Below, piece after piece: positions 25,242 through 29,789 of a stretch of 64,000 nucleotides of DNA. The DNA comes from Echinicola arenosa. Its GTDB lineage: Bacteria > Bacteroidota > Bacteroidia > Cytophagales > Cyclobacteriaceae. A program made the position numbers and the translations under genes. The DNA lies in NCBI RefSeq assembly GCF_014841125.1, contig NZ_JACYTQ010000004.1, forward strand, positions 388,055-452,054, in the 5' to 3' direction. Under the pieces are notes generated by a model that did not search any database, was not told the DNA's origin, and was given only the letters and a program-made list of their open reading frames with translations. Numbering within the stretch: the stretch's first letter is position 1; every line of letters begins with the position of its first letter.

Positions 25242-25273
25242 TTTGCAATTATGAATCCTCTTTTTTACGTTTG
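25242..25273 (+). promoter_or_regulatory. promoter of the 25406 gene (TTTG-N20-TACGTTTG)
   Basis: TTTG at 25242-25245, exactly 20 nt, then TACGTTTG at 25266-25273, a full match to the Bacteroidota housekeeping promoter (TTTG-N19/20-TAnnTTTG). Transcription should begin near 25280, leaving a leader of about 125 nt. Confidence 0.75.
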
Positions 25274-25310
25274 AATTACAATCACGTGATTCACTAATTA
25301 ATAGTACCTG

Positions 25311-25371
25311 CCCAAAGTAATTAGCCTCAGTAATATCTGGCTGTTCGGACGGACAGCTGGGAGGTTTGAAA
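25311..25371 (+). promoter_or_regulatory. structured 5' leader element, copy 1
   Basis: The 5' block CCCAAAGTAATTAGCCTC and 3' block GGAGGTTTGAAA are almost identical to those at 27155-27213. AGCCTC (25323-25328) pairs with GAGGTT (25361-25366). Inside are 8 unpaired nt and a 10-bp helix (25337-25346 with 25351-25360, three G-U pairs) closed by the tetraloop GGAC. In copy 2 the inner helix has different bases but the same place and loop size. The GGAGG is 41 nt from the start codon, too far to be a Shine-Dalgarno site. No Rfam family comes to mind. Confidence 0.6.
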
Positions 25372-25405
25372 GAGTTATTTTATTAACCCTTAAAATTTTA
25401 AAACC

Positions 25406-26011
25406 ATGAGATTAATTATTGCAACAATGATGGCGCTATGCATTTCACTTAATGCAACAGCCCGTACCGCAGGTCACACAGACCTCAAGAAAGAAGAAAA
25501 AGAAGCAAAGGTGGTCCTGGAGAAAATCGGGGACAAGAAAGTACAGCTCAAGTTTTTGACCGAGCCAAGCGGAAATGTTTTGGTAAGGATCAAGAATTCA
25601 CACAAGGGCGTTATCTATAAGGAAGTTATCAAAACAGGCAAGGAATTCAAGAAGAACTATGATTTGTCTGCTTTGGCTGAAGGTGACTATGAAATTGAGG
25701 TGTTTACCCGTGAACAGGGAACTATCAATAATTTTGAAGTGACTTTAGGCAAAGAGAAATCTGCTGGTTCCAATTACTTCACCAAGGTGAAAGTGATAGA
25801 CAATAAGAATGTGGCTCTTTTGGTGAAATCTAAAGGTGATGACAAAAAGTACATCCGTATCTTGGACAAGGGGCATGTGATCTTTGAAGATTCCTTTGAG
25901 GGAAACAAGTACGGTAAACTATTCAAATTCGAAAAAGTAGCTTCTCTTGATGACCTTGTATTTGAGGTAAGAGACGAAGATGGAGATGGAAAATACCTTT
26001 CTGCTCTTTAA
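25406..26011 (+). CDS. small secreted protein, paralogue 1 of 3 (two Ig-like repeats, T9SS-tail-like)
   Basis: A 201-residue exported protein; the signal covers residues 1-19 (cleavage near NATA-RT). The mature part holds two related beta-sandwich-like units: residues about 38-118, with the motif YDLSALAEGDYEIEVFT, and about 125-201, ending LDDLVFEVRDEDGDGKYLSAL. The DLSxLxEGxY motif resembles the final strands of T9SS sorting domains and of DUF3244-type small secreted proteins; the match to either is tentative. It is lysine-rich, lacks cysteines in the mature part and has no enzymatic motif. It has its own promoter and structured leader, and a strong terminator at 26036. The protein at 27244 is a close paralogue and the first 21 nt of the two genes are identical. 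Confidence 0.65.
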   Translation: MRLIIATMMALCISLNATARTAGHTDLKKEEKEAKVVLEKIGDKKVQLKFLTEPSGNVLVRIKNSHKGVIYKEVIKTGKEFKKNYDLSALAEGDYEIEVFTREQGTINNFEVTLGKEKSAGSNYFTKVKVIDNKNVALLVKSKGDDKKYIRILDKGHVIFEDSFEGNKYGKLFKFEKVASLDDLVFEVRDEDGDGKYLSAL

Positions 26012-26035
26012 AACTAAAACCAACAAAGAATTTGG

Positions 26036-26066
26036 AGGCTGTCTATTTATAGGCAGCCTTTTTTTA
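26036..26066 (+). terminator. intrinsic terminator of the 25406 gene
   Basis: A 10-bp stem AGGCTGTCTA/TAGGCAGCCT (one G-U), 4-nt loop, followed by seven T residues; 24 nt past the stop. Confidence 0.85.
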
Positions 26067-26875
26067 TGCGTATATGTTTTTGAGTTGGTGTTATTGGATT
26101 GGTTTACGTTTTTTGGTGTGTTGATTCAGAATTAAAAATATTGGATTTAGCCATATTTCCGAGTGAGAGGTAAATCAGTCTTAAGCTTTATGGACTTGCT
26201 TTCTTAAAATAATTTTTGAAACACTTAGATAGAGGTCTGTCTTACTACTAGTCAAGCAAACATAGATGTGATTATTTGTCTTCCAAAATATTTACCATGC
26301 CCAAATGCATTTTGGATTGCTTATTCTGAATCCAAGAGTATTTGCTAAGGATGAGGAGAGCAAGTCATTGAATCCATGGACAAAAGGATGTTCTAATGTT
26401 TAAGCATATCAAGATGTACCAACGGCAGGATAAGTCATATTTTCATTCATAAAACTATAGAAAAGTCAAGAAAATTATGCTCATTACAAGTTGGTTGAGG
26501 TTGGGACAAGTGACATCTTTCATGGTCTAAGGTAATGTTTGGTGCCATCATTCTGAATGGTTTGTTGGAAGGCAAAGGTTGATAATGACCTTGTCCTTTG
26601 ATACAGTTTTTGTTACCAACAAAAGGAATTATGGTTGTGAGCGCCAGAGGGCACGATGCAATCATTTTACATCAGCCAATTTAAATTTTGTCGACTCTTG
26701 TGCTATCGATTGCTCAATTTGTGTGTGGGCTTAAACTGTAAGTAAGGTGTGAGTGGTTTGAGATTTCAAGATATTGACTTCTTTTTTTGCAGTTATTGAT
26801 TTTTAAGGTTTGATAATAGTGTTCATTTTATGAGAGAATTGTTGAATAGCGTAAAATAGGTTTATTTTTTTGAGC
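26067..26875. other. gene-free stretch between two paralogues
   Basis: About 800 bp without a credible gene. The longest open frame, on the minus strand at 26447-26665 (72 codons), resembles nothing and has no signal peptide or upstream element. No palindrome above background was noticed. It may be decayed coding sequence or upstream regulatory DNA of the 27244 gene. Confidence 0.5.
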
Positions 26876-26889
26876 GGAAACGTTTGCAA
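26876..26889. promoter_or_regulatory. possible LacI-type operator
   Basis: GGAAACGTTTGCAA, on the other strand TTGCAAACGTTTCC, is a near palindrome around CG and a relative of the site at 25149. It lies 206 nt upstream of the -33 box of the 27244 gene. Confidence 0.3.
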
Positions 26890-27095
26890 TAAATCCCTAG
26901 ATAATGTCAGGAAAACTTTTTTCAAGTTATTTATCGCTTGGTTCTCTATGGCTTATAAGAGTTTTATCCAAATAATATTTGGCGCCTAGCCGGCGTCATG
27001 TATATTCATAGTTTAAAACATGGAAATACAAAATAACTAATGATTTACTTATAATATTATTGAATCGTTAATTTTGAATAATTATTATTATATAT

Positions 27096-27127
27096 TTTGT
27101 AATTAATAACACTATGTTTTACATTTG
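27096..27127 (+). promoter_or_regulatory. promoter of the 27244 gene (TTTG-N20-TACATTTG)
   Basis: TTTG at 27096-27099, exactly 20 nt, then TACATTTG at 27120-27127. It has the same architecture as the promoter of the paralogue at 25242. The predicted start of transcription is near 27134, giving a leader of about 110 nt that begins close to the inverted repeat TGATCAATGATCA. Confidence 0.75.
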
Positions 27128-27154
27128 TAGTGTGATCAATGATCAAACAAAGCA

Positions 27155-27213
27155 CCCAAAATAATTAGCCTCTAGAAAATACAAGTGCTCAGCAGAGACT
27201 TGGAGGTTTAAAA
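27155..27213 (+). promoter_or_regulatory. structured 5' leader element, copy 2
   Basis: The 5' block CCCAAAATAATTAGCCTC and 3' block GGAGGTTTAAAA match copy 1. AGCCTC (27167-27172) pairs with GAGGTT (27203-27208). Nine unpaired nt follow on the 5' side and none on the 3' side, then an 8-bp helix (CAAGT, bulged G, CTC with GAG, ACTTG; 27182-27202) with a 4-nt loop AGCA. The inner-helix sequence differs from copy 1 while the pairing and geometry are kept. Confidence 0.6.
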
Positions 27214-27243
27214 AAATTCAAAACCTATTAACATTTCTAAAAA

Positions 27244-27828
27244 ATGAGATTAATTATTGCAACATTAGTAGCGTTAAGTATTTCAGTAAGTACATTCGCG
27301 AAAACAGGTTCTGACCTGGACGAAAAAACAGTTAAAATTGAAAAAGTAGGAGACAAGAAGGTTCAGTTGAAGTTCTTGGCCGTACCAAGCGGTAAAGTAC
27401 TTTTAAGAATCAAAGACGAAAATAGCTCAGTTATTTTCAAAGATATCATTTCTAGTGACAAGCTTTTTGCTAAGAAGTATGACCTTTCTGCCTTGGCAGA
27501 CGGAGAGTACAACTTTGAAGTATTCACTCCAGAGCAAGGAACTATACAAAATAAAGATCTTTTCGTAGGCGCTACCGCAGCGAAAGCAGATTTCTTTACT
27601 AAAGTAAAAGTTCTTGATGACAATAATATTGCTTTCTTGGTGAAGTCTTCGGGAGAATCTAGGAAGTTTGTAAGAATCCTTGATCAAGGAAACGTGATCT
27701 TCGAACAAGAGATTGCCGGTAACAAATTTGGAAAAGTTTTCAAATTCGAAAAAGTAGCTTCTCTTGATAACTTGGTATTTGAAGTAAGAAACGAAGAAGG
27801 ACAGGGTAAATACATCTCTGCTCTTTAA
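27244..27828 (+). CDS. small secreted protein, paralogue 2 of 3
   Basis: A 194-residue exported protein (signal 1-19, cleavage near TFA-KT), clearly homologous over its full length to the product at 25406: VGDKKVQLKFL, YDLSALADGEYNFEVFTPEQGTI, LVKSSGESRKFVRILDQGNVIFEQ and FKFEKVASLDNLVFEVR all have counterparts. The same two-unit layout is kept. The gene and its leader appear to be a duplication of the 25406 locus, or the reverse. Codon choice looks biased towards favoured codons and the promoter is canonical, which suggests high expression. A strong bidirectional terminator follows. Function is unknown. Confidence 0.65.
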   Translation: MRLIIATLVALSISVSTFAKTGSDLDEKTVKIEKVGDKKVQLKFLAVPSGKVLLRIKDENSSVIFKDIISSDKLFAKKYDLSALADGEYNFEVFTPEQGTIQNKDLFVGATAAKADFFTKVKVLDDNNIAFLVKSSGESRKFVRILDQGNVIFEQEIAGNKFGKVFKFEKVASLDNLVFEVRNEEGQGKYISAL

Positions 27829-27850
27829 TACAAAAAGATAATTTTTGATA

Positions 27851-27882
27851 AAGGCGCTTTGAATGCTCAAAGCGCCTTTTTT
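27851..27882. terminator. bidirectional terminator between convergent genes
   Basis: A 12-bp perfect stem AAGGCGCTTTGA/TCAAAGCGCCTT, 4-nt loop, with T-rich sequence on the right and A-rich sequence on the left. It serves the 27244 gene (+) and, within its last bases, the gene at 27887 (-). Confidence 0.85.
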
Positions 27883-29198: not shown

Positions 29199-29789
29199 AT
29201 GAAAGCATTATTAACATCAATTTTTGTATTTGGAATGATATTCCTAGCAAAAGCTTCAGAACCAGAAACACCAGCGAAAGAAAGTTTAATGGCCGTAACT
29301 ATGGTCGAGGCAACCAATGAAAAAGTAAACATCACTTTTAGGGTGCCAGTGGGAAAAGTAGTAGTCTCTATTTTAGATGAGGACAATAAGCTCCTTGCGC
29401 GAAATAAATACAATGCGAAAACTCCCATGAAGATTCCTTATAATCTTTCAGAATTACCAGAAGGGGACTACTCTATCAAAATCAAAACAAAGGACGAGGT
29501 AGCCATTTATAACGTAGAAACTGAGGAGAAAAAAGTGGTTTTTGAAATGCCGATTGTAGCCTTTGGTAAAGCTACGGATAATCATACCATTAACCTGACT
29601 GTTATCGGTATTGAGCAGGCTGGTACTCAGGTAGATATTTTCGATGAGAGCAACAGTAAAATTGCCAGCGATCATGTGAAAGTTGAGAAAGGCTTTGAAA
29701 GAGATTATAAAATTACCAACAGAAATGTGGAAGGGTTATATGTACGCATCAAGGATGCCCAAGGGAGAAAGAAATACATTTATTTCTAA
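29199..29789 (+). CDS. small secreted protein, paralogue 3 of 3 (diverged)
   Basis: A 196-residue exported protein (signal cleaved near AKA-SE, residue 20). It follows the same two-unit plan as the products at 25406 and 27244: VEATNEKVNITFRVPVGKVVVSILDEDNKLL, then YNLSELPEGDYSIKI, a second unit beginning NHTINLTVIGIEQAGTQVDIFD, and a short end VEGLYVRIKDAQGRKKYIYF. Sequence identity to the other two is much lower and it lacks their leader element and promoter layout. The predicted mature protein is acidic at its N-terminus. A terminator follows at 29816. Function is unknown. Confidence 0.6.
   Translation: MKALLTSIFVFGMIFLAKASEPETPAKESLMAVTMVEATNEKVNITFRVPVGKVVVSILDEDNKLLARNKYNAKTPMKIPYNLSELPEGDYSIKIKTKDEVAIYNVETEEKKVVFEMPIVAFGKATDNHTINLTVIGIEQAGTQVDIFDESNSKIASDHVKVEKGFERDYKITNRNVEGLYVRIKDAQGRKKYIYF

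Follow-up and report, generated by a model that had tools for sequence, protein, structure and literature searches.

The two paralogous genes of a 64,000-nt window (the whole stretch of Echinicola arenosa DNA analysed here) are preceded by copies of an RNA element that, on comparative sequence grounds, is a real mRNA-structure family, lying outside Rfam and, within the searches made, confined to Cyclobacteriaceae and one gene family. The element is conserved, paired and covarying, and would extend from the leader through roughly the first 19 codons of genes for secreted DUF3244-like Ig-domain proteins. Our best explanation, to which we assign a probability of roughly 60%, is that the copies belong to a so far undescribed family of mRNA structures acting in cis, through which translation and stability of the mRNA of this one gene family are set; such control in cis is the safest reading of its presumed effect, and the leader RNA probably controls how strongly the secreted protein is made. 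No description of the RNA family was found in the literature searched, and comparison with Rfam gave no family overlapping the element (none over the window at gathering score, none over the element at E ≤ 1–5). Candidate leader RNAs in Rfam, including those from comparative genomics (e.g. PMC2864571), are similar in combining covarying helices with conserved unpaired bases, but none gave a match overlapping the element.

Gene 1 (25406–26011; this and all features below are on the forward strand) encodes a secreted DUF3244-like tandem Ig-domain protein of 201 aa, and gene 2 (27244–27828) encodes its paralogue of 194 aa (60% identity). The protein, about 200 aa long and carrying a signal peptide, shows weak DUF3244 similarity, and its similarity to the BT3441 family falls far below the cut-off. 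A protein model of moderate confidence (mean pLDDT 76) comprised beta-sandwich domains with only generic Ig/FnIII matches, and the neighbour genes of the homologues differ between genera, so no function was assigned to the protein. In g22 and g64 (L181 and L182), for example, a sigma-factor-like gene and two genes for short secreted proteins precede the gene, which differs from its surroundings in Echinicola. A third, distant paralogue (29199–29789, 196 aa, DUF3244-like) is found just downstream in the window, with neither the leader nor the coding hairpin described below.

Both genes have an exact TTTG-N20-TACnTTTG promoter, as claimed in a preliminary description of this DNA: TTTG-N20-TACGTTTG at 25242–25273 for gene 1 and TTTG-N20-TACATTTG at 27096–27127 for gene 2, which makes two exact matches in the 64-kb window against 0.09 expected by chance. 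Both fit the Bacteroidetes promoter consensus TTTG / TAnnTTTG as quoted in PMC7366714, and the transcription starts of both genes are predicted from this pattern. The palindromes that had been reported near the predicted starts were recovered as well, the palindrome or weak hairpin AATCACGTGATT at the predicted 5′ end of mRNA 1 (25280–25291) and the hairpin TGATCAATGATCA at that of mRNA 2 (27133–27145). Terminator-like hairpins are located 3′ of gene 1 (26034–26061) and gene 2 (27850–27879); a scan of the forward strand placed terminator-like sites after or between genes and none in either leader, giving no sign of a transcription attenuator. An upstream ORF in the gene 1 leader was rejected, as direct reading showed this leader to contain no ATG.

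Across genera, most leaders have a 5′-end hairpin after the predicted start (29 of 35 fall below the shuffle mean; mean z −1.3), with stems of unrelated sequence and with loops of varying length, while the pairing is kept. Control at the DNA level, in which the post-promoter palindrome would be a repressor operator and the leader similarity a by-product, could account for Echinicola gene 1, where the palindrome AATCACGTGATT is perfect and conserved and its RNA hairpin weak. Stems and loop lengths that differ between genera with pairing kept nevertheless favour an RNA hairpin over a DNA operator, and DNA binding at the start cannot account for covariation in the helices of leader and coding sequence, which leaves an operator unlikely. 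The ompA mRNA carries a stabilising 5′-terminal hairpin; the hairpins found here are alike in lying near the predicted 5′ end with sequence free and pairing kept, and differ in being one of several elements and in having a 5′ end predicted from the promoter. Under the cis-acting reading, this 5′-proximal hairpin would shield the mRNA.

In the leader core, the conserved stretch CCCAAA-UAA would precede a hairpin that covaries. In gene 1, the stretch CCCAAAGTAATT (25311–25322) is unpaired in the leader fold and conserved across genera (alignments A2 and A6), and the hairpin (25323–25366), supported by folding and by outer-helix covariation, has the arms AGCCTC (25323–25328) and GAGGTT (25361–25366), a bulge at 25329–25336 and an inner hairpin at 25337–25360. 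The gene 2 core (27155–27208), supported by folding, model match and covariation, has CCCAAAATAATT at 27155–27166, the arms AGCCTC (27167–27172) and GAGGTT (27203–27208), a bulge at 27173–27181 and an inner hairpin at 27182–27202. The two near-identical blocks noted earlier are indeed present at both genes and constitute a unique pair in the genome, as TTAGCCTC-N20..45-GGAGGTTT was found at only two sites in 5.39 Mb, both of them the window leaders (control 0). When the core is folded alone, both copies form AGCCUC/GAGGUU with 8–9 unpaired nt on the 5′ side and none on the 3′ side, enclosing an inner helix with a 4-nt loop. The hairpin of the preliminary description is thus reproduced for the isolated core, but becomes a predicted minority state (P 0.03 and 0.01 for the two window genes) once the start of the coding sequence is included, block 1 then pairing with the first codons instead of block 2. 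Single-sequence fold stability of the cores is modest (z −1.8 and −2.2), and the evidence for structure is therefore comparative. Likewise, the leaders lie where they had been placed, within 25242–27243, but the element runs on into both coding sequences; the coding hairpin and the helix between leader and start codon were both absent from the earlier reading. GGAGG was rejected as a Shine-Dalgarno (SD) sequence, being far from the AUG and not conserved (GAAGG and AAAGCC elsewhere). Separately, three contigs of the source genome have TTAAACCTATTAAA close to an end (G000:C15:23-36, C17:65-78 and C20:45-58), perhaps within a repeat at which the assembly broke off.

Further copies of the leader were looked for and are present. 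All other Echinicola genomes encode the same gene pair with the exception of G001, which has three partly decayed gene copies, each with the leader; these copies (L013, L024 and L025) are in tandem, and at least two are truncated or stop-broken, with the leader retained in all. Homologues with 36–45% identity in four further Cyclobacteriaceae genera have the same leader. A covariance model built from the leader core (R1) was run over 391 Cyclobacteriaceae genomes and gave 55 matches at E ≤ 2.4e-4 in 13 genera, every one of the 55 directly upstream of a homologue of the same secreted Ig-like (DUF3244-like) gene, whereas a search of 341 genomes of the order gave no convincing match outside Cyclobacteriaceae (best 0.004). 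Reading upstream of homologues added diverged leaders in g21, g27, g46, g53, g73 and g82, for a total of about 19 genera (13 by model and about 6 by inspection). A second model (R2), built on distant genera with Echinicola, g67 and g82 left out, recovered the leaders of these three, with matches ending at the AUG, and again found nothing outside Cyclobacteriaceae. Matches to the block 1 pattern (2 mismatches) outside the gene family, e.g. in g82 and g18, were coding or chance where read. Some distant homologues of the gene have no leader, which indicates that the leader is not simply dragged along with the gene. Two variants were observed. The g82 leaders (L160–L171) are rearranged, with an outer helix GUAACCC/GGGUUAC that takes in the CCC block, unpaired elsewhere, and with a different hairpin (GUUGC...GCAAC type) in the signal-peptide codons. 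L050–L053 (G265, G271, G227 and G215) keep the leader core and have no Bacteroidetes promoter pattern at the usual upstream place; the start-codon helix discussed below is weak in three of these four.

The outer helix of the leader is maintained by compensatory changes on alignments made blind to structure, which answers the question of covariation raised in the preliminary description. In A2, a MAFFT alignment made without structure, 97.5% of the cells are paired compared to at most 58.6% in slid registers, and the covariation score is 0.233 compared to at most 0.105 (0/500 shuffles), these statistics using slid-register and shuffle nulls on the alignments. In the more distant alignment A6, five of the six pairs have double-sided changes and the score is 0.436 against at most 0.234. 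The arms AGCCUC/GAGGUU are replaced by e.g. GCCUUC/GAAGGU, GGCUUU/AAAGCC, AGCCCC/GGGGUU and CGUCC/GGACG, eye-matched examples that serve as illustration and not as a test. The inner hairpins share no evident sequence between genera and were found by unconstrained folding in most, having been exchanged wholesale with pairing kept. The earlier remark that the hairpin changed while staying paired accordingly holds in two forms, an outer helix that covaries and an inner hairpin that is replaced but paired. The leader combines conserved helices with compensatory changes, as judged against slid-register and shuffle nulls, and a fixed place upstream of one gene family. The conserved structure behind the earlier term "cis-regulatory RNA" is well supported, while "cis-regulatory" is a conclusion we infer from the exclusive place before this family. 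Shared descent by recent duplication without function, as the paralogy of the window genes (60% identity) might suggest, had been doubted as a sufficient explanation, and copies in about 19 genera with compensatory changes contradict it, as do the distant homologues without leader; we find it hardly credible.

The best-conserved unpaired bases have no known partner, which counts against our best explanation. Alternatively, a protein or small RNA acting in trans could target the leader, or the leader could be a riboswitch; CCCAAA-UAA and the asymmetric bulge would then be the parts that are read, and invariant unpaired bases beside a hairpin of freely changing sequence fit this idea. The inner hairpin is, however, too variable for a classic aptamer, the element is carried by one gene family only, and the source genome contains no long antisense match to block 1, both matches being sense; an antisense RNA to block 1 was rejected for lack of a reverse match in that genome. 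We hold this account as a tentative one, below the cis-acting reading.

In most genera the structure continues into the gene, as the signal-peptide codons 10–19 form a hairpin of the type GCA-UU-GGUAUUUC-UACA-AGUACCUU-UGC, located at 25433–25462 in gene 1 and 27271–27300 in gene 2 and supported by covariation and a synonymous-codon control. Among 39 distinct sequences, 84.8% of the cells are paired compared to 35–48% in slid registers, with 68 double-change cells against 26 in shuffles (0/500); g2 and g64, whose signal peptide has one extra residue, were manually realigned with a register shift of one codon. Synonymous codon shuffles of 44 sequences gave a sharp minimum at codon 10 (mean z −1.8, with z below −3.5 in several genera) and values near zero at codons 7 and 13, and of nine other window genes used as control, only 23857 showed a comparable dip. 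The hairpin is missing in g67, g32 and g35. Where present, it would help to define the initiation window from just downstream.

The region before the AUG would provide a strong SD-independent initiation context. Bacteroidia ribosomes generally make no use of SD pairing (PMC9976891), and in Flavobacterium johnsoniae A at −3, −6, −12 and −13 goes with higher translation, while structure lowers it (PMC6847099). Outside the Echinicola group, A is kept at −3 (20/20), −6 (19/20) and −13 (19/20), and within the group at −13 (42/42) and −12 (40/42). The A-rich initiation regions of F. johnsoniae (PMC6847099) are alike in these positions; here the context forms part of a structured leader that is conserved and belongs to one gene family. 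These favourable bases (PMC6847099), a 5′-end hairpin of unrelated sequence in most leaders and a start codon that is generally not leader-bound outside the Echinicola group would also suit a constitutive expression element, whose structures would serve only to keep an abundant mRNA stable and to adjust a strong initiation site, with neither switch nor signal. That account is possible, if not the one we lean towards, and offers no reason for the conserved CCCAAA-UAA stretch or for the first codons of the Echinicola group, which are frozen and pair with block 1.

These frozen codons are found in genes starting with MRLIIAT (Echinicola, g67, g35, g32 and g19), where codons 2–7 read AGA TTA ATT ATT GCA ACA. 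Synonymous identity between groups at codons 2–7 is 1.0, 1.0, 1.0, 0.94, 0.94 and 0.77, respectively, compared to 0.42 on average elsewhere in the gene, and TTA, fixed in the MRLIIAT start, makes up just 13% of the leucine codons in these genes. The first codons can base-pair with leader block 1 (AAUAAUUAGCCUC with GAGAUUAAUUAUU), and the resulting alternative helix is predicted in mRNA 1 between 25316–25329 and 25407–25420 (span 25316–25420, P 0.85) and in mRNA 2 between 27160–27172 and 27246–27258 (span 27160–27258, P 0.93). In its own register 92% of cells are paired; slid registers reach at most 57%. A single U-A to C-G replacement is seen, in all three G001 copies (one event), other changes being mainly A-U versus G-U, and a case for selection on the helix would draw on this double change and the frozen codons. 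The duplex energy is no better than that of synonymous versions, and the ensemble pairing is better than in most, not all, of them. The helix is weak in G002p2, G265, G271 and G227 and is not kept in most genera outside the Echinicola group; within the group we regard it as likely but not established.

In predicted folds, the leader hairpin and the start-codon helix are mutually exclusive, as they share one strand. Folds from the leader to codon 20 have the start-codon helix as dominant in most sequences, with two AUG bases inside and the leader hairpin displaced. Folds of the growing transcript form the leader hairpin first in most tested sequences, the exceptions being window gene 1 and G001, in which it stays weak at every length. 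From about 15 nt of coding sequence onwards, the start-codon helix predominates. Five gene 2 copies have lost the leader hairpin and kept the start-codon helix. A further switch helix formed by blocks 2 and 3 (GGUU/AACC) looked plausible for Echinicola and g67, but was dropped because g73 has not kept it. An RNA thermometer that melts the start-codon helix could draw on the AU-rich composition of the helix and the two AUG bases it contains; in none of the eight sequences tested, however, does predicted pairing fall below about 0.75 at 42 °C, and in window gene 1 it even increases between 10 and 42 °C; with no predicted melting the thermometer was rejected as very improbable.

Mutually exclusive folds of leader and coding sequence are known from the mRNAs of phage lambda cIII, E. 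coli cspA and hok. The likeness is that a leader strand pairs either within the leader or with the gene start, the coding sequence being part of the fold; there is no relation in sequence or gene, and the exchange is here only predicted, in one genus group and with no predicted temperature response. In Echinicola and its closest relatives, pairing of block 1 with block 2 would leave the start codon open and, in most sequences examined, be favoured during leader transcription, and pairing with the first codons would occlude it and be favoured in the longer mRNA. Such an exchange of partners could amount to a translational on/off choice, a putative switch for which a protein, a small RNA or a ligand are candidate triggers. 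A new Bacteroidota translational switch in the full sense, in which the leader strand is exchanged between leader hairpin and first codons, the signal-peptide hairpin is included and a factor reads CCCAAA-UAA, is a speculative extension that we consider rather improbable.

The putative start-codon switch of the Echinicola group would be the most interesting part of the element. As Bacteroidota start translation without SD pairing, mRNA structure around the AUG is one of few known handles on initiation, and the about 19 genera with their many independent helix replacements constitute a natural set for studying how structure tunes SD-independent initiation. The family also indicates that a conserved leader element can include coding sequence.
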